Source: Rubrobacter sp. (GTDB lineage Bacteria; Actinomycetota; Rubrobacteria; Rubrobacterales; Rubrobacteraceae). Taken from it: a stretch of DNA of 11,676 nt. A model generated the notes under the pieces. That model did not search any database and was not told where the DNA came from. It saw nothing but the letters and a program-made list of their open reading frames with translations. Within the stretch, counting starts at the first letter, position 1. Each line of letters starts with the position of its first letter. The position numbers and the translations under genes were made by a program. The DNA is taken from positions 1 through 11,676 of the forward strand of contig JACDFX010000016.1 of assembly GCA_013815575.1 (NCBI GenBank). Reading direction: 5' to 3'. Below are positions 1,858-11,667 of this stretch, piece by piece.

Positions 1858-2262
1858 CTATCCCACGGTAACATCCGGGCTTCCTGCCACGGCGACGGCC
1901 TCTATCTCGACCAACTGCCCCCCGTACCCCAGCAACGAAACGCCGAGCAGCGTGCTGGCAGCGGCGGCCAAGGGTGACTCCTGGACGACGCCCCACACGT
2001 CGGCCGGATCCTTCCGGTCCTCCGCGACGACGTACACCGTGGTCTTGAGCACGTCCTCCCACCCCGCGCCCGCCGTTTCAAGCGCCTGTCCGAGGTTGTC
2101 GACGACCCGCCTAGTCTGGGCGGCGTGGTCACCCGGGCCTACGAGATCGCCTTCCGCGTCGAGCGGCACCGCGCCGGCGGTCAGGACGAGCCGATCCCCG
2201 GCCGCGGCGTGCGAATAGCCGGGAGTTTGGGCCAGGACGGGGGCGTCGAAACGTTCGGTCAC
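1858..2262 (-). CDS. RidA/YjgF/UK114-family protein lacking the catalytic arginine
   Basis: The protein has 134 residues, the normal size of a single RidA domain. Typical RidA proteins hydrolyse reactive enamine/imine intermediates; they are small trimers in the cytoplasm. Family features are PGYSHA (14-19), LTAG (27-30), the helix TRRVVDNLGQALETAGAGW (50-68), LKTTVYV (72-78) and LVEIEAVA (117-124). Ungapped alignment backwards from VEIEA places Thr104 where E. coli RidA has Arg105, the residue that binds the substrate carboxylate. The local sequence is AASTLLGV instead of PARSCVEV. This places it in an Rid subgroup unlikely to act as a classical enamine deaminase. It starts at GTG 2262, and its GTGA overlaps the TGA stop of the cyclase gene by four bases, so translation is probably coupled. 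AGGGGG upstream is a reasonable binding site. Its real substrate cannot be told from sequence. Confidence 0.88.
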   Translation of the reverse strand: MTERFDAPVLAQTPGYSHAAAGDRLVLTAGAVPLDAEGDLVGPGDHAAQTRRVVDNLGQALETAGAGWEDVLKTTVYVVAEDRKDPADVWGVVQESPLAAAASTLLGVSLLGYGGQLVEIEAVAVAGSPDVTVG

Positions 2263-3068
2263 GGTCCCCCTGGCAACAACGCCATCGCCCGTCCCGGTCC
2301 GCCGGAGGAGCCGGCTATCTTGACGGGTAGGAATACGAAGAGAGCCCCGCGCACCGGCAGCTCCGAGAGGTTGGTCAGAAGCTCCACGTAGCGCATCCCG
2401 CGCCCAAGTCCCTCCTGGTGAACGGGTACGCCGTCGTGGGCGCTCCCGATGCTCGGGGCGTCGATGCCGATGGTCTTTATACCCTTCTCGTGCAAATAGA
2501 CGGCGGTCTGCGGCGAGGGGGCCGGCCAGCCGGGATGCTTCTCTGTGACAAGCGAGCCGCTCAGGTACTTCTCGCCCTCTTCCCCCTCTACGTAGTAGCG
2601 GTCCCAGCCCGTCCGGAAGAGGACGACCTCGCCCTCGACGAGCCCGCCGTGCTCTTCCTCGAAACGGCGGACGTGGTCCGGCTCGATAAACGGGCTGACG
2701 CCGGGCTCTCCCTGCCCGGACAAGAAGCTCACGTCAACGACCACGGCGGGCCCCATCAGGTCTTCGAGGGGGACCTTCTCGCCGGTCTGGGCACCGAGGT
2801 CGCCCGCGAGCGGCAGCCCGGAGCCAGGCGGGGGTACAAAGTGGGTCGGGGCGTCGAAGTGGGTGCCGCAGTGCTCGTCAATGACGAAGAAATTGGTCTG
2901 GTAGGGGGCGGAGCTCCTCGTCTTTCCCGTCGGTCCTTCTACCTCGGCAAACCAGTTCCAGTTGTGGTGGGCGAAGGTCATGTGGCCGGGCCAGGTGCCA
3001 GGCAGCCGCTCGGAGACGGTTACCGAGAGGTCAACGACCTTTGAGTTAGAGAGCGCGTTTGCGTCCAC
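2259..3068 (-). CDS. Cyclase-family metal-dependent hydrolase (PF04199, kynurenine formamidase-like)
   Basis: A 269-residue protein carrying the family signature HCGTHFDAPTHF (66-77), whose His and Asp residues bind the metal. Further family features are the opening VVDLSVTVSERLPGTWPG, the TIGIDAPSIG segment in the C-terminal half, and a VELLTNLSELP segment near the end. Known members hydrolyse cyclic or linear amides (kynurenine formamidase, isatin hydrolase), and some act on other cyclic compounds, so the substrate here is open. A role as a lactone or amide hydrolase in the sugar-acid pathway is speculation. The GTG start at 3068 is preceded by GAAGGAGG four bases away, a strong site. The gene follows the LarA-family gene after a 116-base gap, the largest within the tightly packed central block, and overlaps the RidA-family gene by four bases. 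The two may be a functional pair. Length is normal for the family. Confidence 0.88.
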   Translation of the reverse strand: MDANALSNSKVVDLSVTVSERLPGTWPGHMTFAHHNWNWFAEVEGPTGKTRSSAPYQTNFFVIDEHCGTHFDAPTHFVPPPGSGLPLAGDLGAQTGEKVPLEDLMGPAVVVDVSFLSGQGEPGVSPFIEPDHVRRFEEEHGGLVEGEVVLFRTGWDRYYVEGEEGEKYLSGSLVTEKHPGWPAPSPQTAVYLHEKGIKTIGIDAPSIGSAHDGVPVHQEGLGRGMRYVELLTNLSELPVRGALFVFLPVKIAGSSGGPGRAMALLPGGP

Positions 3069-3184: not shown

Positions 3185-4435
3185 TCAAAACTCACCGATG
3201 GACCCGTCGGCTTCGAAACGGAGCTCCTCGGGTCCGGAGACGACCTCGGCGTCGGAGTTCGCGAGCGCCTCTTGAACGAGGTTCTCGGAGACGTAAAGGT
3301 ACTCAAGGTGCAGCGTGTTCGGGATGCGGACGAAGCGCGTCTCTTCGGGCGGGACGCCCCAGTTGCAGCGGACGGCCGTCTGGAGTGCCTCCCTGTCGGT
3401 GGAGAGAACCATCGGGACCTTCGCGCGTTCGACGAAGGTGCTGGTGACGACGTTGGCGTTCATGGCGCTGCGGTCGATCTGCCCGACGAGCCGCTCCGTG
3501 GTCAGGTCGGCGAGGCCGACGCCCAAAGCGTTGCCGTGCGACTCCTCGCTGACGTCGCCTACTATCACGTACTTCACGTTCGGGGTCTCGGGCTCATCCA
3601 CGCCGAGGATGCGGAAGCGTCCGATCACGTTCGTGTCCATCCCCGTCCCCGAGTAGTTCTTGCCGAGGGCGTCCACGTAGAGGATGTCCACGTCAGAGAC
3701 GGGAAGTACGGGCATCATCCCCATGTACCCGCGCAGGAGTTCCCGCTCGCGGCGCGGGATCTCGCCGGTAGGTATCGCCTCGATGGTCGCCGGCTCGTCG
3801 TAGGCGTTCTCCACGATGCCGAGCCCGAAGAGGATGTGCCCGGAGTCAAGGACCTCCTCGCCTACTTCGACCATGAAGTCACGGATACCCTCGACGCCGT
3901 AGCCGTGCAGGGCGAGGGCCTGGGCGTGCTTGCCGAGCCCGATGGAGGCCATCTTCAAGAGGCCGCTCTCCACCTCGGCGCGGAAGTCCGTGTGGGCCTT
4001 GATCCTGTTGACGACCACGACGCCGTCGGCCTCGGAGGCGATCTTATCCATGAACACTGGAATACCGCGTTCGGTCTCCCCTATCTCGACCGTCTCCATA
4101 GACGACCGGATCGGCGCCCCGCAAAACTCCTCCGTGACGCCTAGAGAGGCCAGGATCTCGACCTGCCCCTCCGCCGTCGCCCCGCCGTGGCTCCCCATCG
4201 CCGGCACGATGAACGGCTGGGCCCCCATCTCCTTGAGTCCGTCTACTACCGCGCGCAGGACCTCGTCGATCCTGGCGATGCCGCGGCTGCCGGCCGTGAC
4301 CGCCACGCTCATCCCCGGCCTGACGGCGGACGCGACGTCTTCGCGCCTCAACTGCTCGCGCACCGTACCTTCAACGCTCTCGACGCGGGGGCGGGGGAAG
4401 GTCTGGCGTACTTTTACGACCTTTGGGAAGTCCAA
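3185..4435 (-). CDS. LarA-family (nickel-pincer cofactor) 2-hydroxyacid racemase/epimerase homologue
   Basis: With the TTG start the protein has 416 residues, typical of LarA (lactate racemase, DUF2088 fold). LarA swaps the configuration at C2 of a 2-hydroxyacid by reversible hydride transfer to a nickel pincer nucleotide cofactor bound to a lysine. Candidate equivalents of L. plantarum His108, His174, Lys184 and His200 are His83 (PAMGSHGGATAEGQ), His148 (NRIKAHTDF), Lys161 (SGLLKM) and His177 (ALALHG). The Lys-to-His spacing of 16 is the same as in LarA. GSHGGA replaces the SHR-type motif of true lactate racemases, so the substrate is probably not lactate. The TTG is one base past the PdxA stop and has AGAGGAG five bases upstream; the in-frame extension up to 4600 lies inside pdxA and is a shadow. 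Coupling to the kinase and PdxA genes suggests an aldonate such as a tetronate as substrate. The cofactor-making larB, larC and larE genes are not in the window. Confidence 0.85.
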   Translation of the reverse strand: MDFPKVVKVRQTFPRPRVESVEGTVREQLRREDVASAVRPGMSVAVTAGSRGIARIDEVLRAVVDGLKEMGAQPFIVPAMGSHGGATAEGQVEILASLGVTEEFCGAPIRSSMETVEIGETERGIPVFMDKIASEADGVVVVNRIKAHTDFRAEVESGLLKMASIGLGKHAQALALHGYGVEGIRDFMVEVGEEVLDSGHILFGLGIVENAYDEPATIEAIPTGEIPRRERELLRGYMGMMPVLPVSDVDILYVDALGKNYSGTGMDTNVIGRFRILGVDEPETPNVKYVIVGDVSEESHGNALGVGLADLTTERLVGQIDRSAMNANVVTSTFVERAKVPMVLSTDREALQTAVRCNWGVPPEETRFVRIPNTLHLEYLYVSENLVQEALANSDAEVVSGPEELRFEADGSIGEF

Positions 4436-4436
4436 G

Positions 4437-5435
4437 CTAACTCCTCTCTTCGGCGCCGGCCAGGGTGCGGGCGAGGTCCAGGGCTGCCTTGAGGCTCGCG
4501 TGGTCGGCCTTGCCGGTACCGGCGATGTCGAAGGCGGTGCCGTGGTCCACGCTGGTGCGGAAGAACGGCAGGCCGACGGTGACGTTGACGCCCGTGTCAA
4601 AGCCCATGAGCTTTATGGGGATGTGGCCCTGGTCGTGATACTGGACGACGACCACATCGAAGTATCCCTGCCTGGCGCGCATCATTACCGTATCAGGCGC
4701 CCACGGGCCGCTGGCGTCGACACCTTCCTCCAGGGCCGCCTTGACGGCGGGCCTGATCCTCTCCAGGTCCTCCTTGCCGAAGAGGCCGTTCTCCCCGGCG
4801 TGCGGGTTGAGCCCGGCCACGGCCACGCGGGGACTCTCGACGCCGAGCTTCCTCAGGGACTGGTGGGCCAGACGGATAACGGCGAGCTCGCGCTCCGGCT
4901 GGGCGCGCTCTATGGCCTCTTTGAGGGAGACGTGGGTCGAGACGTGGATCACTTTTAGCTCGTCGGTGACGAGCATCATGGCGTAGTCGTCGGTGTCTGT
5001 GAGGTCGGCCAGTATTTCGGTGTGCCCCGGATACCTGTGGCCCGCGAGGTGCATCGCCTCCTTGTTCAATGGGGCCGTGGCTATCGCCGCCACACGGCCC
5101 GCGCTCGCAAGTCTGGCCGCCCGCTCGACGTACCGGAACGCCGCATCACCCGCCCTGGCGTCCAGCTCTCCGAATGGCAGGTCCTCCGGAAGCCCGCCGA
5201 CTTGCAGCACGTCAACGGTTCCGGTCTCGAATACGGCGCTTTCGGGCTCGGGGATCTCGTTGACCTTCAGCGGGGAGTCCAGCAGTTGCGCGGCCCGCCT
5301 CAGCATTCCGGCGTCGCCGACCACGAGGGCGCGGTTCCTGTGGTGGAAGTCGGGGTCGGCGAAGGTCTTTGAGATTATCTCCGGCCCGACCCCGGCCGGA
5401 TCCCCCATGGTTACGGCTACGAGCGGCGGCGTCAC
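4437..5435 (-). CDS. pdxA2: PdxA-family 4-phospho-hydroxyacid dehydrogenase, probably PdxA2 (D-threonate/D-erythronate 4-phosphate)
   Basis: A full-length 332-residue PdxA homologue. It has GDPAGVGPE (11-19), APLNKEAM (121-128), GHTE (137-140) and the three metal histidines His168 (STHVSL), His212 (NPHAGE) and His267 (YHDQGH), which correspond to E. coli His166, His211 and His266. RTSVDHGTAFDIAGTG (293-308) is also present. PdxA proper oxidises 4-phosphohydroxythreonine in vitamin B6 synthesis. PdxA2 paralogues paired with DUF1537 kinases oxidise D-threonate or D-erythronate 4-phosphate, and decarboxylation yields dihydroxyacetone phosphate. The four-base GTGA overlap with the DUF1537 kinase gene, and the absence of any other B6 gene, favour the catabolic role. 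Sequence alone cannot separate the two activities. The start is GTG 5435; a GGGAG lies about ten bases upstream. Gene order kinase-PdxA2-LarA with almost no gaps implies stoichiometric co-translation. Confidence 0.9.
   Translation of the reverse strand: MTPPLVAVTMGDPAGVGPEIISKTFADPDFHHRNRALVVGDAGMLRRAAQLLDSPLKVNEIPEPESAVFETGTVDVLQVGGLPEDLPFGELDARAGDAAFRYVERAARLASAGRVAAIATAPLNKEAMHLAGHRYPGHTEILADLTDTDDYAMMLVTDELKVIHVSTHVSLKEAIERAQPERELAVIRLAHQSLRKLGVESPRVAVAGLNPHAGENGLFGKEDLERIRPAVKAALEEGVDASGPWAPDTVMMRARQGYFDVVVVQYHDQGHIPIKLMGFDTGVNVTVGLPFFRTSVDHGTAFDIAGTGKADHASLKAALDLARTLAGAEERS
4441..4447 (-). promoter_or_regulatory. Ribosome binding site of the LarA-family gene, inside the end of the PdxA gene
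   Basis: Minus-strand AGAGGAG is encoded by the last codons of the PdxA-family gene and lies five bases before TTG 4435. It supports the TTG start and translational coupling of the two genes. Confidence 0.65.
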
Positions 5436-6634
5436 GTCTTTTCGTCTCCCTTCAAGAGCGATTCCACGGCCCCGACGATCGTGTCCGGCCTCCCGAAGCC
5501 ACCGGCCTTCGTCACGACGGTGTAGGGGCTAGGGCCGATCAGGGCCCCGACCGGCACGCCGGCCTCCAACTCCCCCGAGAGCCGGATGCCCGAAGCCCCG
5601 AGCGCCCGCGAGACCGCGACCGCGGTGGACCCCCCGGTCAACACCAGCCCGTCGAATGACCCCTCCCCGGCGAGCGCGGCGGCCGCCCCCGCGAGCGACC
5701 TCATGACCTGCCCCCGGGCGGAGGACGAAGCCCTGCCCGAGGAATGCACGACGGCGCACGACCCGCCGGAGAGAATGCCCCGGGCCGTGCCCACCACCTC
5801 CCCGACAGTGCCCGGCCCGACCGGCACGGCCACCTCACCGTACCGCTCGACCATCTTGTCGAGCTGCCCCCGCGACGCGGCGTTTAGGGAACCGATAACG
5901 ACCAGCACGGAACGCGCCTTCGCGAAGGATGGCCTGGTCTCCGCGGGATGCGGCCCCGGGTAGACGGCGCCGAGCGCCAGCGCCAGCCCCGCCGAGCCGG
6001 CCCAGAGGACCGCGCCAGGGTCCGGGACGGCCCGAACCAGGGCCTCCAGATCCGCGTCGCTCTCCGCGTCAACCACGGTCCACTCGTCCCTATCCAGGGC
6101 GCGGCGCACGTTTTCGGGGTCCCCGAGGTCCTCGACGCCCAGAGTGCCTACGGAGGACGACCACCTGCCGAGCAGCGTCGGTACGTGCCCCTCCCTGACG
6201 GGGGTGCGCGGGTCGTTCCTCATCTCCGTCTCATGAACCGGGACGCCGTGGACGAGCTGTGTACCGCCGACCGTGGTCCGTGCGGCGGCCGGGAAGGCCG
6301 GGGCGACGATGGCGCGCCGGCGGCGGGTGGACTCGAAGGCTGAGGTGAGCTCCGCGGCGACCGAGCCGCGCAGGGTTGAGTCGAACTTCTTGTAGACAAA
6401 GCGGGCGGCGCGGGAGTTTCGCCCCGCCTCCGCCACGTACCGGGCGGCGAGGCTGGGGCGTAGCGTGCGGGAATTCGTGTCGAAGACGACGGCGTCGAGG
6501 TCCTCCGGGGGCACCGGCTCTCCGCGAAAGACGACGGCGGTGCGATAGCCGGCGCGGGCAAACTGGACGCCGGTGTCGGCCGCCCCCGTCAGGTCGTCGG
6601 CTATCACGGCGGTAAGCAACTCAGCCCGCCTCAT
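5432..6634 (-). CDS. DUF1537 four-carbon acid sugar kinase (D-threonate/D-erythronate kinase-like)
   Basis: A 400-residue protein with both halves of the DUF1537 family. The N-terminal substrate domain shows IADDLTGAADTG (11-22), DTNSRT (52-57) and KKFDSTLRG (82-90). The C-terminal nucleotide-binding domain shows LTGGST (332-337) and TKAGGFG (375-381). Characterised members (DtnK, DenK, OtnK) use ATP to phosphorylate the terminal hydroxyl of D-threonate, D-erythronate or 3-oxo-tetronates; a relative acts on 3-oxo-isoapionate. Being followed by a PdxA homologue rather than an aldolase points to the threonate/erythronate type. The ATG at 6634 lies 14 bases inside the end of the GrpB gene, and the stop overlaps the PdxA GTG. 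The binding site is weak (GGAG about 11 bases upstream), so a TTG five codons later is a possible alternative start. The substrate assignment is inferred from the neighbour and not from specificity residues. Confidence 0.9.
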   Translation of the reverse strand: MRRAELLTAVIADDLTGAADTGVQFARAGYRTAVVFRGEPVPPEDLDAVVFDTNSRTLRPSLAARYVAEAGRNSRAARFVYKKFDSTLRGSVAAELTSAFESTRRRRAIVAPAFPAAARTTVGGTQLVHGVPVHETEMRNDPRTPVREGHVPTLLGRWSSSVGTLGVEDLGDPENVRRALDRDEWTVVDAESDADLEALVRAVPDPGAVLWAGSAGLALALGAVYPGPHPAETRPSFAKARSVLVVIGSLNAASRGQLDKMVERYGEVAVPVGPGTVGEVVGTARGILSGGSCAVVHSSGRASSSARGQVMRSLAGAAAALAGEGSFDGLVLTGGSTAVAVSRALGASGIRLSGELEAGVPVGALIGPSPYTVVTKAGGFGRPDTIVGAVESLLKGDEKT

Positions 6635-7157
6635 CCCGGATGCGGCTCCAGAAAAGGGCCTCCCTTTCCGTCCTTTTTATGAAGGCATCCTTGCCGCCCA
6701 TGTAGGCTTGTATGTCCGTGGGAAACCTTTCGGCCAGGTCCTTCTTCAACGTTCCGTAGGCGCGGGCGGTCTCTGGGTGCTGGATCAGGTAGTCCTTGAA
6801 AGCCAAGTGACGCTCCACTTCCGGGGTGCCGGCCTCAAAGACGTGAACGTTGCAGGTTCGCACGGACCCGCGATTCCTCGTGAAGAAGCGTCGCCCGGGG
6901 ATACCGTATTCCCCCCAAGCCTCGTAATCTCTCCCGACCAGCACCCCGTTGAAATCGTCCACTTTCCGGATCTTTCGGACTTCTACCAGGACGTCTACCG
7001 TCGGCTTGGCGCTCAGGCCCGGCACGGCGGTGCTGCCGATGTGGTGAACGGCAAGGGCTTCGTCGCCGAGGGTGAAGCGCAGCGCGGTGGCCTCCGTCTC
7101 GAAAGCTTCCGTCCAGGCGGGGTCGTGCGGCACGACCCTGACCTCGCGGGGCGTCAC
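6621..7157 (-). CDS. GrpB/UPF0157 family protein (nucleotidyltransferase-like)
   Basis: A 178-residue protein of the GrpB family (PF04229), which belongs to the nucleotidyltransferase fold. The signature is VHHIGSTAVPGLSAKPTVD (37-55): GST forms the start of the active-site loop and Asp55-x-Leu resembles the metal-binding pair. The opening VRVVPHDPAWTEAF and the later HVFEAGTPEVERHLAFKDYL are also family features. The biochemical role of GrpB proteins is not settled; in actinobacteria the domain is sometimes fused to dephospho-CoA kinase. Here it stands alone, 13 bases after the permease stop (GTG start at 7157), and its end overlaps the kinase start by 14 bases, so it is firmly inside the catabolic operon. 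Whether it modifies a sugar, a protein or a nucleotide cannot be seen. The family call is solid and the function unknown. Confidence 0.85.
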   Translation of the reverse strand: MTPREVRVVPHDPAWTEAFETEATALRFTLGDEALAVHHIGSTAVPGLSAKPTVDVLVEVRKIRKVDDFNGVLVGRDYEAWGEYGIPGRRFFTRNRGSVRTCNVHVFEAGTPEVERHLAFKDYLIQHPETARAYGTLKKDLAERFPTDIQAYMGGKDAFIKRTEREALFWSRIRDEAG

Positions 7158-7170
7158 GGGTTCGTCCCTA

Positions 7171-8199
7171 TCAACCGGCCCTGCTCTCGCGGCGGCGATT
7201 CAGGGCGTCCACGAGGACGGCCAGAAAGATCACGACGCCCTGGACGAACTGGACCCAGAACGGTGGGACGTTTAGCAGGGTGAGGCCGTTGTTGAGCGTG
7301 CCGATCAGGAGGACGCCCACGAGCGTACCGCCCATGCTGCCCCGCCCCCCGAAGAGTGAGGTCCCGCCGATGACCACCGCCGCGATGACCTGCAGCTCCA
7401 GCCCTTCGGCCGCCGAGGGCAGCGCGGAGTTCAGGCGGCTCGTCAGGACCACCGCCGAGAGGCCGGCGCAGAGGCCGGAGATCGCGTACACCAGAAACGA
7501 GACCCGCCGCACGGGGATGCCGGCCAGGCGCGCGGCCTCCCGGTTGCCGCCAATGGCGTAGACCTGGTGGCCGAAGACCGTGCGGGAGAGGACGAAGTAG
7601 CCGATGGCGAAGACGGCGAGCGTCAGCCACACGAGCAGGCTCACGCCCAGGATCTCCGCCTGCCCGACGAACGTGAAGCTCGCGGGGAAGCCGAAGACCG
7701 TCTGTCCGCTGCTCACGGCGAGGGTCAGGCCGCGGCCCATCGAGAGGACGGCGAGGGTGACGATAAACGGCGTGATGCCGAAATACGTGGTGGAGAAGCC
7801 GTTAAAGGCCCCGATCAGGAGCCCGGCGCCCAGCGCCACCAGGATACCCACGAAACCGGGAACCCCGCCCTGCATGGAGATCGCAGCCAACATCCCCGTC
7901 AGGGCGACGATCGAGCCTACCGAGAGGTCTATGCCGGCGGTAATGATGACGAACGTCATGCCCACGGCGGCGATACCGATAACCGCCGACTGCACGACTA
8001 TCTGGGTAAAGTTGTCGAACTCGAGGAAGTTCGGGGCCACGAGGGCGAGGACGACGCACAGGAGGATCCAGGCCGCCAGTATCGGCCCCGTGCCGGTCAG
8101 AGAACGGGCAAGGATGCCCCCTATCCCCCGCCGTCCGGAGCCTCCCTGCTGGGCCTGCTCCTTACCGGGCTCCGCCCCGGCAGCGCGTTTTTCGGCCAC
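7171..8199 (-). CDS. CUT2-type sugar ABC transporter permease (RbsC-like)
   Basis: A 342-residue integral membrane protein of the ribose/xylose/autoinducer-2 permease family (PF02653). A hydrophilic N-terminal tail of about 35 residues (AEKRAAGAEPGKEQ) is followed by roughly nine to ten hydrophobic segments, near residues 38-55, 67-88, 94-110, 113-133, 142-160, 184-204, 232-252, 268-283, 288-302 and 316-331. AGIDLSVGSIVALTGM (88-103) is a family hallmark. GGNREAARLAGIPVRRV (217-233) is the cytoplasmic coupling loop that docks on the ATPase, and VIGGTSLFGGRGS (276-288) is also conserved. It would work as a homodimer with the ATPase encoded just upstream. The GTG start at 8199 lies three bases after the ATPase stop, with the GGAGGAAGG binding site formed by the last ATPase codons. 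Confidence 0.95.
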   Translation of the reverse strand: MAEKRAAGAEPGKEQAQQGGSGRRGIGGILARSLTGTGPILAAWILLCVVLALVAPNFLEFDNFTQIVVQSAVIGIAAVGMTFVIITAGIDLSVGSIVALTGMLAAISMQGGVPGFVGILVALGAGLLIGAFNGFSTTYFGITPFIVTLAVLSMGRGLTLAVSSGQTVFGFPASFTFVGQAEILGVSLLVWLTLAVFAIGYFVLSRTVFGHQVYAIGGNREAARLAGIPVRRVSFLVYAISGLCAGLSAVVLTSRLNSALPSAAEGLELQVIAAVVIGGTSLFGGRGSMGGTLVGVLLIGTLNNGLTLLNVPPFWVQFVQGVVIFLAVLVDALNRRRESRAG

Positions 8200-8202
8200 G
8201 TA

Positions 8203-9729
8203 CTATCCTTCCTCCCCGTCCGTCTCCGCGCCATTCTCTTCCGTTCCGGAGGTCGCGTACTCCAGGATCTTCTCCTGGTCCGCCTCCGCGCTGGAGATCT
8301 CACCCACCACCCTGCCCCCACGCAGGACCACGATGCGGTCGGCCATCCCGAGAAGCTCCGGAAACTCGGAGCTCACCATCACAACGGCCCCGCCCCCGGC
8401 CGCGATCTCCAGCACGTGCTCGTAGATCTCGCTCTTCGCCCCCACGTCTATCCCCCGCGTCGGCTCGTCGAGGAGCACCACGGAGGGCTCGGTAGCCATC
8501 GCCCGCGCCAGCACGACTTTCTGCTGGTTGCCGCCGGAGAGCAGCCCGGCCTCCTGCTTCAGGGACGAGGCCCTAACCCCGAACCGCTCTCGCAGTCTTT
8601 GCCCGAAGGAGCGGTAGCGTCCCCCGTCCACGAAGCCGGCGCGGCTAATACGGTCGAGGACGCTCAGGATCATGTTCTCGTTGATGGACGCCGAATGTAT
8701 GATCCCCTCGGTCCCTCTGTCCTCCGGCACGTACACGATGCCCGAGTCGAGGCCTTCCGACACGGTGCGTATTTTCCGCCCCTGTCCTTTGACCAGGATT
8801 TCACCGCCGGTTGCGGGCGTGACGCCGGCTATCGTCTTTAGCGTCTCGGTGCGGCCCGCGCCGACGACGCCGGCGAGGCCCAGTATCTCGCCCCGCCTCA
8901 CGCTGAAGGAGACGTCCCGCACCCGCGGCTCCAGGCTTAGGTTCTTTACCTCAAGCGCAACCTCCCCGAGCTCCCGCTCGCGGCTCGGGAAGAGGGAGTC
9001 CAGGCGCTTGTTGACCATCGCCTGCACGAGAGATTCGGTGGTCCATTCGTTTATCGGCCTGGAGCCGACGACCGCGCCGTCGCGCATGACGGTCGCCGCG
9101 TCGCAGATCTCGAATACCTCTTCTAGATGGTGGCTTATATAGATGACGGAGATGCCTTCCTGGCGGAGGTCGCGCACCACGTCGAAGAGCACCTGTATCT
9201 CGGAGCTCTGGAGGGCGCTCGTGGGCTCGTCCATTACCAGGATGCGGGCATCGCGGTGGAGTGCTTTCGCCACCTCGAGGAGCTGGCGAACCCCGAGCCT
9301 GAGCGACCGGACCGGCGCCCCCGTGCTCAGGTTGTCGAGCCCTACCCGGGCGAGCAGACGCCGCGCCCGCGTCCGCGCCTCGCGGCGGTCGAGCAGCGGG
9401 CCGCGCGAGGGCATATCCCCGAGAAAGAGGTTCTCGGCCACGCTCATCTCCGGGACGAGGCTCAACTCCTGGTAGATCACGGCGATGCCGGCCGCTAAAG
9501 AGTCGGCCGGGCTGCCGGCCTCCAGCGGCTCCCCGTCCACCACGATGCGCCCGTCGTCAGAGCGGTAGGCCCCCGCCAGCACCTTTATGAGGGTGGACTT
9601 GCCGGCCCCGTTCTCGCCCACAATACCCATGACCTGCCCGCGCCCCACGCGCAGGTCCACCCCCTTGAGCGCGTGCACGCCCGGGAACCTCTTGTCTATC
9701 CCCTCCATCACAAGCGCGGTCTCCGTCAC
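8203..9729 (-). CDS. CUT2-type sugar ABC transporter ATP-binding protein (RbsA-like, two NBDs)
   Basis: With the GTG start the protein has 508 residues, matching the tandem-domain sugar ATPases (RbsA about 500). The first nucleotide-binding domain has Walker A GENGAGKST (38-46), Q-loop IYQELS, a degenerate signature LRLGV (143-147), Walker B ILVMDEPTSAL (163-173) and switch His200. The second has the degenerate Walker A GVVGAGRTE (287-295), a full LSGGN signature (397-401), LLDEPTRGIDVGAK (419-432), and Ser instead of the switch His (VSSEFPE). This asymmetry is normal for the family, so probably only one site hydrolyses ATP well. A longer frame to ATG 9780 would translate a GC-rich palindrome into a Pro/Arg-rich leader and is rejected. 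GAAGGAG stands four bases before GTG 9729. It would power uptake with the neighbouring permease and binding protein. Confidence 0.95.
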   Translation of the reverse strand: MTETALVMEGIDKRFPGVHALKGVDLRVGRGQVMGIVGENGAGKSTLIKVLAGAYRSDDGRIVVDGEPLEAGSPADSLAAGIAVIYQELSLVPEMSVAENLFLGDMPSRGPLLDRREARTRARRLLARVGLDNLSTGAPVRSLRLGVRQLLEVAKALHRDARILVMDEPTSALQSSEIQVLFDVVRDLRQEGISVIYISHHLEEVFEICDAATVMRDGAVVGSRPINEWTTESLVQAMVNKRLDSLFPSRERELGEVALEVKNLSLEPRVRDVSFSVRRGEILGLAGVVGAGRTETLKTIAGVTPATGGEILVKGQGRKIRTVSEGLDSGIVYVPEDRGTEGIIHSASINENMILSVLDRISRAGFVDGGRYRSFGQRLRERFGVRASSLKQEAGLLSGGNQQKVVLARAMATEPSVVLLDEPTRGIDVGAKSEIYEHVLEIAAGGGAVVMVSSEFPELLGMADRIVVLRGGRVVGEISSAEADQEKILEYATSGTEENGAETDGEEG

Positions 9730-9733
9730 ACGT

Positions 9734-9740
9734 CTCCTTC
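9734..9740 (-). promoter_or_regulatory. Ribosome binding site of the ABC ATPase gene
   Basis: Minus-strand GAAGGAG, four bases before GTG 9729, decides the start of the ATPase gene. It lies just past the intergenic palindrome. Confidence 0.65.
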
Positions 9741-9747
9741 GGCCGGC

Positions 9748-9771
9748 CCGCCGGGCCCCGGGGCCCGGCGG
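9748..9771. repeat. Perfect 24-nt palindrome between the binding-protein and ATPase genes
   Basis: The half-site CCGCCGGGCCCC is followed directly by its exact reverse complement. In the mRNA this gives an all-GC hairpin with at most about 10 stable base pairs and a four-base loop. It sits 15 bases after the binding-protein stop and seven bases before the ATPase Shine-Dalgarno sequence. There is no T-run after it, so it is not a standard intrinsic terminator. In sugar importer operons such hairpins often protect the upstream binding-protein message from 3' decay, giving more binding protein than ATPase and permease. That role is inferred here. Confidence 0.75.
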
Positions 9772-9786
9772 ACGAGGCATTGCTTC

Positions 9787-10794
9787 CTACTTGACCTGGT
9801 TGCTCCAGATACCGTAGTCCTTCACTTCCTGGCTGTCTATGTTCTCCTTGTCGATGACGATCGTCGGGTAGAAGAACTCCTTCGGGGGCGTCTTGTCCTG
9901 GTTGGCCTGCTGGTCTATGAAGTCCATGGCGGTGCGGGCCATCTCGACGGGGTTCTGGCTCACGGTGGCGGTCTGCTTGTCGTTGCGGATGGCGTCCAGC
10001 GCCTGGGCCGTGCCGTCGATGCCGACGACGTAGATATGCTCGTCGCTGCTCGGCGGCTCGTAGCGGCCGGCCGAGTCTATGCCCCGGATCGCGCCTACCG
10101 TGTTGTCGTCGTTGGCGCCGAAGATGGCGTCCACCTTCGGGTTGGCCTGCAGGATGTTGGTCGTGACGTTCAGGGCCTTCTCCTGGTCGAAGTCCGCCGG
10201 CTGATTCGCCACGATCTCGATGTCCGGGTGCTGCTTCATCACCTGCTGGAAGCCGGTCTCCCGGTCGGCCGCGGCGGTCGTGCCGACGAGGCCCTGAAGG
10301 TCCACCACGTTGCCCCTCGGCTCGCCGTACCTTTTTTCGAGCAGGTCAACGATGTAGTTGGCGCCCTTCTTGCCGGCCTGGATGTTGTCTGTCTCCACGG
10401 CGCTGGCGAGCTCGCCGCCCTCGGAGCCACGGTCGAGGGTGAAGACGGGGATATCCGCGTTGTTGGCGGCCTGGACCGCCGGGACGATGCCGTTGGCGTC
10501 GATCGGGACGAGGACGAGCGCGTCAACGTCCTGGGTGATGAGGTCCTGGGTCTGGTTGAACTGGGCGCCCGCATCACCGTTGGCGTTCGTCTCCTTGAGC
10601 TCGAAGCCGTGCTCCTTCGCGCCGTCCTTGACGCCCTTCTGGAGGCCGACGAAGAACGCGTTGTTCAGCGTCGGGCCGGCGTAGCCGACCGTAAGCTGGT
10701 CTCCTCCACCTCCGCCGCTTCCGCCTCCCGCGCAGGCGGTGACGACCAGCGCCAGTGCCGACACCAAAACCACCCGAACCAAAGAACCTCTCAC
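9787..10794 (-). CDS. Ribose-type sugar ABC transporter substrate-binding lipoprotein (RbsB-like)
   Basis: A 335-residue type I periplasmic-binding-fold protein (PF13407). The signal peptide is VRGSLVRVVLVSALALVVTAC, with lipobox VTAC and Cys21 as the lipidated residue; a Gly/Ser linker follows, so it is anchored outside the membrane. Alignment by eye to E. coli RbsB keeps all the ribose-contact residues: Asn45, Phe47 and Phe48 (TLNNAFF), Asp121-Arg122 (FTLDRG), Arg178 (ADRETGF), Phe202 (QPADFD), Asn228 (GANDDN), Asp260 (VGIDGT) and Gln280 (TVSQNP). The ligand is therefore likely a neutral pentose-like or smaller sugar, which is hard to square with an acid substrate. The GTG at 10794 is chosen over an upstream ATG (10869) because of GAGGAGGAG five bases away and because the extension would displace the signal peptide. 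It follows the SDR gene by 105 bases in which I see no clear promoter or terminator. Confidence 0.95.
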   Translation of the reverse strand: MRGSLVRVVLVSALALVVTACAGGGSGGGGGDQLTVGYAGPTLNNAFFVGLQKGVKDGAKEHGFELKETNANGDAGAQFNQTQDLITQDVDALVLVPIDANGIVPAVQAANNADIPVFTLDRGSEGGELASAVETDNIQAGKKGANYIVDLLEKRYGEPRGNVVDLQGLVGTTAAADRETGFQQVMKQHPDIEIVANQPADFDQEKALNVTTNILQANPKVDAIFGANDDNTVGAIRGIDSAGRYEPPSSDEHIYVVGIDGTAQALDAIRNDKQTATVSQNPVEMARTAMDFIDQQANQDKTPPKEFFYPTIVIDKENIDSQEVKDYGIWSNQVK

Positions 10795-10799
10795 CGTAA

Positions 10800-10808
10800 C
10801 TCCTCCTC
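10800..10808 (-). promoter_or_regulatory. Ribosome binding site of the sugar-binding lipoprotein gene
   Basis: Minus-strand GAGGAGGAG lies five bases before GTG 10794. It is among the strongest sites in the window, as expected for the most highly made importer component, and it decides the start. Confidence 0.7.
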
Positions 10809-10899
10809 GTTTCTCTCCCGGAACCCCTCGGGTCCCGCCCTTTGGACGACCGACCGCCTCCCTCTTCAAGGTTCCTTCTCCCGCCGGGGGCGCCGCGCC

Positions 10900-11667
10900 T
10901 CACTGGGCAAGGTAGCCGCCATCCACCGGCAGGATCGCACCGGTCACGAACGACGCCTCGTCGGAGGCCAGAAAGAGGATGGCGTTCGCCACCTCCGACG
11001 GCTCCCCGAGCCTCCCGATGGGGTGCGCCTCCTTCATGGGCGCCTTGTACTCCTCCGGCAGGTCCGCGACGGCCTCGGTCGTTATGGTGCCAGGCGCCAC
11101 GGCGTTCACGCGGATGCCGCGGGCAGCCCACTCGACGGCGAGGTGCTTGGTAATGCCGGTCGCCACGAACTTCGCAGGCCCGTAGGTGGACTGCTGCGCC
11201 TGCCCCGCCACCCCGCTTATGGAGGAGAGACAGACGATGGAACCACCCGGGTTCTCCTGCTCCAGCATCGCCTCGACGGTGAACTTGCAGGTCAAGAACA
11301 TCCCCCGCCCGTCCACGGCCATGACGTGGTCCCAGTCCTCCGGCGTGGCGTCAACGATATTGTTCAAGGGAATAACCCCGGCGTTCGCCACGAGCACGTC
11401 AACCCGCCCGAACGACTCGACCGCTGCCCCGATGATCCGCTTCGCGTCGTCCACCGCCGAGACGTCACCCACTACGGAGACGACCTCGGCCCCCTCCCCG
11501 CCCAGCCGGTCTTCCAGATCCTTCAGCCCTGCCTCGTCCACATCGTTTACGACGAGCCTCGCCCCTTCGCGGGCGAAGAGCTCGGCGGTCGCCCGTCCGA
11601 TACCCTTGGCGGCCCCCGTCACGATCGCGGACTTGCCACCCAGCCTGCTCAACCCCGTCTCTGCCAC
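10900..11667 (-). CDS. Short-chain dehydrogenase/reductase, classical NAD-type
   Basis: A 255-residue classical SDR. TGAAKGIG (17-24) is the cofactor loop. Asp42 (VVNDVDE) at the end of the second strand favours NAD over NADP. NAG (95-97), Ser149 (CLSSISG), Tyr162 and Lys166 (STYGPAK) form the active site, and VNAVAPGTI and the terminal VDGGYLAQ are typical of the family. The fourth catalytic position, usually Asn in a VNLxG segment, reads Asp119 (MAVDGRG). Substrates in this family include sugar alcohols, aldoses, aldonates and 3-oxoacyl compounds; placement before a sugar importer suggests oxidation of the imported sugar or sugar alcohol, but that is inference. The start is GTG 11667 with GAGGAG a few bases upstream at the window edge. 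It is on the same strand as the importer genes, 105 bases from the first of them, and could be the first or an internal gene of the operon; what lies upstream is outside the window. Confidence 0.92.
   Translation of the reverse strand: MAETGLSRLGGKSAIVTGAAKGIGRATAELFAREGARLVVNDVDEAGLKDLEDRLGGEGAEVVSVVGDVSAVDDAKRIIGAAVESFGRVDVLVANAGVIPLNNIVDATPEDWDHVMAVDGRGMFLTCKFTVEAMLEQENPGGSIVCLSSISGVAGQAQQSTYGPAKFVATGITKHLAVEWAARGIRVNAVAPGTITTEAVADLPEEYKAPMKEAHPIGRLGEPSEVANAILFLASDEASFVTGAILPVDGGYLAQ

Follow-up and report, generated by a model that had tools for sequence, protein, structure and literature searches.

What does a LarA-type gene do in a coupled block with the genes for a DUF1537 kinase and a PdxA homolog? 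The question is raised by a stretch of DNA from Rubrobacter sp. (assembly GCA_013815575.1, contig JACDFX010000016.1), here called the window, which at 11,676 bases is an entire contig and carries all of its main genes on the minus strand. In our best current reading, a nickel-dependent epimerase has been added to the known kinase/PdxA2 pathway, and the trio occurs in two domains of life. We give somewhat better than an even chance to the specific form of this reading, in which the block serves tetronate uptake and breakdown, and a LarA using the nickel-pincer nucleotide (NPN) inverts C2 to turn D-erythronate and D-threonate into each other, letting one kinase/PdxA2 pair use both. The three genes are as follows.

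3185..4435, minus strand: LarA-family protein of NPN isomerase group 22, TTG start, 416 amino acids; candidate sugar-acid C2-epimerase (PF09861, NF052515)
4437..5435, minus strand: PdxA-family oxidative decarboxylase, PdxA2-like (PF04166)
5432..6634, minus strand: DUF1537 four-carbon acid sugar kinase (PF07005 and PF17042)

Conservation of the three-gene block

An initial annotation of the window had described the three genes as one coupled block, and the coordinates bear this out. The kinase and PdxA genes share four bases (5432 to 5435), and the LarA start TTG (4433 to 4435) lies one base after the PdxA stop TAG (4437 to 4439). A longer LarA open frame reaching to 4600 was not accepted as the gene. 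The TTG start is backed by an ATG, GTG, or TTG at the equivalent aligned codon in 13 of 14 directly adjacent homologous loci; the 14th (L075) has an ATG three codons upstream of the aligned start.

The group 22 model was searched over the phylum (396 genomes), giving a match in 65 genomes, 40 of them above the cut-off. Sixty stretches, comprising every above-cut-off place outside the window and a few below, were compared with the window proteins; L099 to L106 come from genomes represented by other stretches and were left out of the counts. The LarA proteins were of two sorts with respect to the window LarA: those of clade A are 62 to 93% identical to it and the rest 35 to 48%. Clade A is a single branch with a Shimodaira-Hasegawa approximate likelihood ratio test (SH-aLRT) value of 100; deeper in the tree, rooting and order are weak, with 17 of 77 inner branches open and long branches flagged.

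Across 39 Rubrobacteraceae genomes, PdxA (PF04166) and clade-A LarA share one distribution: both occur in the same 23 and both are lacking in the other 16. The chance of such an exact match, uncorrected for kinship, is 1/C(39,23) = 2.7e-11. Two of the 23 genomes (G184 and G371) have a split or partial LarA, placed by 74 to 79% identity and outside the tree. Eleven of the genomes lacking both have no group 22 match, and five have other group 22 proteins only. DUF1537 is found in 27 of the 39 genomes, including all 23; the others (G163, G259, G387, and G394) have a DUF1537 match without PdxA.

Twenty further genomes each contribute a full-length clade-A locus, and in all of these loci the kinase and PdxA genes lie on the LarA strand. 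In 13 of them PdxA is immediately upstream of LarA, in 5 it is one gene (about 930 bases) away, and in 2 it is downstream (L095 and L080, 3.6 to 5.5 kb from LarA). The intervening gene in the five (L081, L082, L084, L086, and L087) encodes an alpha/beta hydrolase (L081:4152-5042, L084:6611-7498, and L087:8382-9263), recognized by Pfam in L084, by the same cluster in L081, L082, and L086, and by eye in L087; it is possibly a lactonase of the same pathway. Among partial loci, L074 has PdxA 12 nucleotides off with the kinase beyond, and L073 begins inside LarA. In the directly adjacent loci (the 13 and L074), the distance from PdxA stop to LarA start is -4 to +6 nucleotides in 14 of 14, that of L075 (-4) being counted to its ATG, and a GAGG string just upstream was read by eye, with no chance control, in all 14. 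The three-gene linkage is thus real: conservation of the arrangement rules out chance adjacency. Lack of conservation of the trio in related genomes had been named in the initial annotation as an observation that would refute its proposal; the trio was found to be conserved. As a side observation, the kinase match is broken into two or three pieces in two operons that are otherwise conserved (L085:11390-12594 and L086:12429-13573), by decay or sequencing error.

The LarA-family protein and its predicted active-site residues

The window LarA scores 542 bits against NCBIfam NF052515 (NPN isomerase group 22), above the curated cut-off of 400; it has the LarA fold, and a Lar_N match above cut-off covers residues 19 to 149. 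The histidine pair H83 and H148, equivalent to H108 and H174 of LarA, is present in 21 of 21 clade-A rows. These residues align with the canonical histidines of L001, a LarA from the same genome (Prob 1.7, residues 75 to 149 alone being matched), and of 2yjg (E 0.2), both scores being low. All 21 rows also keep R51, K161, H177, and K259, assigned by motif and spacing alone as putative counterparts of LarA R75, K184, H200, and K298; the K161-H177 spacing of 16 equals that of K184-H200. Tyrosine replaces His83 in one haloarchaeal relative (L119).

A Thr-Asp loop follows His148, and a glycine precedes Lys259. The corresponding residues are E155/S156 and G286 in GntE2, and F175/F176 and V297 in lactate racemase, according to the available part of a published comparison (PMC7583248). 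By those criteria, the window protein resembles the D-gluconate epimerase GntE2 and not lactate racemase. The aspartate two residues past the catalytic histidine, D150, is shared by all 26 trio proteins, whereas only 5 of 54 others have it, these being L115, L049, the second copies of L170 and L171, and L166, a Haladaptatus QDMS2 protein encoded about 4 kb from a kinase-PdxA pair. The tree gives two independent contrasts on starred branches, with which a sign test cannot reach 0.05, and D150 as a mark of specificity is only suggestive.

The same genome encodes two further Lar_N proteins. L001 is a canonical LarA (232 bits to the Isosphaera pallida enzyme), and L002 adjoins, by eye, an alcohol dehydrogenase-like gene.

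Assignment of the kinase and PdxA

The kinase belongs to the DUF1537 family, its SBD_N and NBD_C domains scoring 185.5 and 63.4 bits against cut-offs of 25 and 28.3. Its best NCBIfam match is D-threonate kinase NF047819 at 238.9 bits, under the equivalog cut-off of 450, and we do not file it as DtnK. PdxA scores 361.4 bits against PF04166 (cut-off 27) and 365.3 bits against TIGR00557 (cut-off 290.35), and its top model is D-threonate 4-phosphate dehydrogenase NF002891 at 380.6 bits, under the equivalog cut-off of 583. Its best solved relatives are 4jqp (357 bits), the D-threonate 4-phosphate dehydrogenase 6e85 (354 bits), and 2hi1, a "dehydrogenase 2" (337 bits); the other 12 matches reach at most 200 bits. 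The tetronate route named in the initial annotation for DUF1537 plus PdxA2 therefore holds at the level of family, where the D-threonate models score highest, and not at that of equivalog, since both proteins fall under the D-threonate cut-offs.

PdxA can also suggest vitamin B6, and we considered whether the block makes or salvages that vitamin via 4-hydroxythreonine, with LarA incidental. A DUF1537 kinase phosphorylates 4-hydroxythreonine (PMC7954711, PMC10971088), PdxA2 is capable of the PdxA reaction (PMC9997740), as far as the available portions of these papers go, and PdxS has no match in the window's own genome, which is 83% complete. PdxJ, however, is found in 0 of 39 Rubrobacteraceae genomes, that genome included, and PdxS is above cut-off in 24 of the 39. 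With no PdxJ in the family, PdxA is unlikely to serve vitamin B6, and we regard this as the most improbable of the explanations considered.

A second DUF1537 kinase in the same genome (L156) lies, by eye, near a dehydratase end, a beta-hydroxyacid dehydrogenase-like gene, and a short-chain dehydrogenase/reductase (SDR) gene, and perhaps belongs to another sugar-acid pathway.

The trio in haloarchaea and on plasmids

The window LarA matches 115 records of a plasmid collection, of which the best 40 and 60 spread rows were examined. The trio is carried on plasmids of at least five haloarchaea, in three arrangements. In Natronococcus sp. CG52 the kinase, PdxA, and LarA genes follow the window order, with an overlap of 14 bases and a gap of 2, and Natronococcus sp. 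AD-5 has the same order as judged from open reading frames and matches in a record without annotation (the pair being L162/L163). Haladaptatus halobius and H. salinisoli (L168 and L169) have LarA-kinase-cupin-PdxA, and Halarchaeum sp. CBA1220 (L170) has LarA-kinase-PdxA with LUD genes alongside. LarA and kinase overlap by 8 to 11 nucleotides in L168 to L170, and the five trio LarAs exceed the group 22 cut-off at 482 to 488 bits.

A survey with haloarchaeal PdxA found nine records at 64% identity or more, query included, among the 60 of 516 rows listed. Of these nine, five have the trio as one block and three have it near: in Haladaptatus QDMS2, DYSN1, and YSMS36 a group 22 gene (491 to 493 bits) lies on the opposite strand about 4 kb from kinase-PdxA. 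In the ninth, Halomarina BND7, the genes are apart. The CG52 PdxA is 46.8% identical to Rubrobacter PdxA, versus 44.2 to 49.7% to Rhizobium PdxA among the matches listed, and the haloarchaeal and Rubrobacteraceae LarAs are in separate parts of the tree, whose rooting is unsure. We read this as pointing to separate assembly or a very old link and not to recent joint transfer. In Rhizobium sp. Pop5 the 17 kb examined carry the kinase-PdxA pair but no LarA, so LarA is an add-on. Since the trio is also found in haloarchaea, the epimerase step is probably a working part of a tetronate pathway.

Other group 22 proteins

Clade B, the paralogous LarA of the Rubrobacteraceae, has LutB no more than 3.1 kb away at 11 loci (L041, L044, L045, L047, L050, L052, L056, L057, L079, L092, and L097), which suggests a lactate-type racemase. 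Outside the Actinomycetota, Roseobacteraceae group 22 genes lie near altronate dehydratase and L-arabinonate or IlvD/Edd dehydratase, aldolase-like proteins, and LarC (with LarB in one), a Sporomusa gene near UxaA hydrolases, and a Marinovum gene near a ketodeoxy-sugar kinase and an aldolase; six such plasmid proteins are above the group 22 cut-off at 472 to 532 bits. Because most group 22 contexts are of sugar-acid breakdown, a sugar-acid C2-epimerase is the natural reading.

A rule joining LarA to kinase and PdxA throughout group 22 was tried and rejected: 36 of 40 clade-B and other hits (35 to 48% identity) have no PdxA in the locus examined, and the remaining four have it at 8.6 to 17.2 kb. 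In this set some loci are short (from 3.9 kb up), L076 and L077 are near-copies, and hits such as L078 that scored below 150 bits were excluded.

Haloferax gibbonsii plasmid pHG3 (L175) has a group 22 gene (496 bits) with two LUD-domain genes about 0.9 kb off on the opposite strand, an arrangement that recalls the LarA-LutABC pairing of the Rubrobacteraceae. The NF052515 "equivalog" spans at least three contexts (kinase-PdxA, LutABC, and altronate dehydratase), and records label its members as lactate racemase domain or DUF362 proteins. It probably mixes functions.

Neighboring genes and cofactor supply

The remaining features of the window are listed below.

1858..2262, minus strand: RidA-family protein (PF01042)
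2259..3068, minus strand: cyclase-family hydrolase, downstream of the trio; possible lactonase (PF04199)
6621..7157, minus strand: GrpB-domain protein overlapping the kinase start (PF04229, 172 bits)
7171..8199, minus strand: ATP-binding cassette (ABC) sugar transporter permease, RbsC-like (PF02653)
8203..9780, minus strand: ABC sugar transporter ATPase, RbsA-like, start not refined (PF00005, two stretches)
9787..10869, minus strand: sugar-binding protein, presumably of the CUT2 type (PF13407); nearest solved structures are the periplasmic sugar-binding protein 2ioy and ribose-binding proteins
10900..11667, minus strand: SDR dehydrogenase, candidate sugar oxidation step (PF13561)
minus strand: MoeA, named by eye

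A GrpB gene also adjoins the trio in L081, L082, L084, L085, and L092, five of the 20 other loci of clade A. The SDR gene is upstream of the kinase with no ABC genes between in L083, L086, L087, and L091, and likewise in L084, there with GrpB between.

For the cofactor, the window's own genome encodes LarC (402.8 bits) and LarE (323.9 bits, above cut-off), and 35 of the 39 Rubrobacteraceae genomes, among them all eight other members of the genus, have LarB. Loading of the window LarA with nickel and NPN would be in keeping with these genes. In 12 of the 20 loci of clade A (L075, L079, L082 to L087, L091, L092, L096, and L097) the trio has an Nramp-family metal transporter gene nearby, and such a gene also lies near some clade-B LarA genes; the one copy scanned (L097) gave 510 bits to NCBIfam Nramp_1. 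The transporter could supply nickel.

Proposed pathway and alternatives

Among the tetronates, only D-erythronate (2R,3R) and D-threonate (2S,3R) can be joined by a C2 inversion that keeps 3R, and PdxA2 acts on 3R acids phosphorylated at C4, oxidizing the 3R carbon. Given a 3R-specific PdxA2, C2 inversion joins only those two tetronates, and the conversion of D-erythronate to D-threonate is favored for that reason. In the proposed route, LarA with its nickel-pincer nucleotide would reversibly invert C2 of the free acid, removing the C2 hydride and giving it back on the opposite face, with His83 and His148 as the acid/base pair. The kinase would then phosphorylate C4, and PdxA2 would oxidize C3 with loss of CO2 to yield dihydroxyacetone phosphate, such that both epimers are served by a single kinase/PdxA2 pair. 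The gene linkage and co-occurrence, and the family, fold, and motif residues of LarA, are observed. Substrate, direction, nickel loading, and order of steps are what we infer here; that LarA is an epimerase in this setting is a well-supported prediction. The initial proposal that a LarA homologue could channel both epimers into one kinase is partly supported: the LarA-type protein, the conserved trio, the sugar-acid setting, and a coherent C2-epimerase logic are borne out, and its tetronate assignment goes as far as family.

Several observations weigh against this reading. LarB is not above cut-off in the window's own genome (24.8 bits; genome 83% complete). The position for LarA Asp72, three before R51, is Ala48 in 20 and valine in 1 of the 21 clade-A rows, in an alignment by motif only. 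The window LarA is far from characterized LarAs, a PDB sequence search giving no match at E 0.001. Most bacterial-plasmid kinase-PdxA pairs seen have no known LarA link (one was looked at), so LarA is not needed for kinase-PdxA function. Group 22 also pairs with LutABC, which adjoins the trio in R. indicoceani and lies within the same 20 kb as the trio in L079, L092, and L097; this proximity allows a different hydroxyacid. Gene context can mislead in the LarA superfamily, since in the available part of the functional survey only the Mar2 and GntE2 reactions fitted their gene context, the link not being apparent in other cases (PMC7583248).

Behind the tetronate reading, we rank as the next most likely substrate a different sugar acid, followed by a 4-phosphate and then a lactate-like acid. 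LarA might C2-epimerize a pentonate, a hexonate, or a branched C4 acid handled by the kinase/PdxA pair. The subthreshold D-threonate scores of kinase and PdxA would fit this, as would the hexonate- and pentonate-type dehydratases beside group 22 relatives outside clade A and the resemblance of the importer's binding protein to ribose binders. However, characterized DUF1537/PdxA2 pairs reportedly act on C4 acids (Zhang 2016). D-threonate and D-erythronate kinases of the family are also named in the available text of PMC10971088. We think a substrate other than a plain tetronate unlikely. LarA might instead act after the kinase, turning 4-phospho-D-erythronate into 4-phospho-D-threonate for PdxA2 and perhaps clearing 4-phosphoerythronate, which is toxic. 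The coupling of LarA to PdxA and not to the kinase in Rubrobacteraceae speaks for this order; against it, in L168 to L170 it is the kinase, not PdxA, that LarA overlaps. A phosphorylated ligand has been tentatively modeled in another LarA subfamily (PMC12611868), and an enzyme dephosphorylating 4-phosphoerythronate has been noted (PMC7954711), whereas substrates are unphosphorylated in the available text of two LarA activity papers; action on the phosphate seems to us distinctly improbable.

LarA might also racemize a lactate- or glycerate-type acid for LutABC and have only its regulation in common with the kinase and PdxA. Such a role would account for the LutABC genes near the trio, the LutB-associated clade-B proteins, and the LUD genes adjoining the Halarchaeum trio. 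Against it, clade A follows PdxA exactly (23 of 23), the loop residues are unlike those of lactate racemase, and the distinct clade B is already paired with LutABC, which leaves this explanation very unlikely. Returning to NPN-dependent tetronate epimerization, we tentatively extend it, at a little less than an even chance, to the whole set: clade A and its haloarchaeal counterparts would be nickel-pincer tetronate C2-epimerases, an activity that we found assigned to no natural NPN enzyme, in a pathway built at least twice (Actinomycetota and haloarchaea), with D150 marking specificity.

If true, this would give a function to a so far unassigned group of nickel-pincer enzymes, with members here from Actinomycetota, Pseudomonadota, Bacillota, and haloarchaea, and tetronates would join the natural substrates of such enzymes. 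It would show microbes merging two epimeric sugar acids into one kinase with no second pathway, and "lactate racemase" labels on group 22 genes may then be wrong.

Comparison with known systems

No description of the LarA-kinase-PdxA trio was found in the open-licence literature, a coverage that leaves out the group contexts of Desguin 2020 Table S1. Several LarAs interconvert 4-deoxy-threonate and 4-deoxy-erythronate, with tabulated kcat/KM values reaching some 2.7 x 10^2 per M per s; these are close tetronate analogues, and the mentions of threonate and erythronate found in the available part of that paper are all of 4-deoxy forms (PMC11770544). Single-histidine LarAs with a sugar context are described in the part available of another (PMC12611868). 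If the NCBIfam numbering matches, none of the 13 proteins tested in PMC7583248, going by its available part, is from group 22.

The window LarA is a direct member of NF052515 group 22, a model with no assigned reaction. From the lactate racemase LarA of Lactiplantibacillus plantarum (PDB 5huq) it differs in substrate loop and context, with no significant sequence match, and its His148 and Lys161 are 13 residues apart versus 10 for H174 and K184 of LarA. GntE2 of Thermotoga maritima (LarAH20, PDB 4nar; PMC7583248) is 13% identical to it by structural alignment and has different neighbors. The DtnK/PdxA2 D-threonate pathway reported by Zhang in 2016 has the same two enzyme families, adjacent and coupled; further points of likeness are the sugar importer of the window and the DeoR-type regulator near the operon in relatives. 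The window differs from that pathway in that its proteins score under the D-threonate equivalog cut-offs and that it adds the gene for a nickel-pincer-type epimerase.

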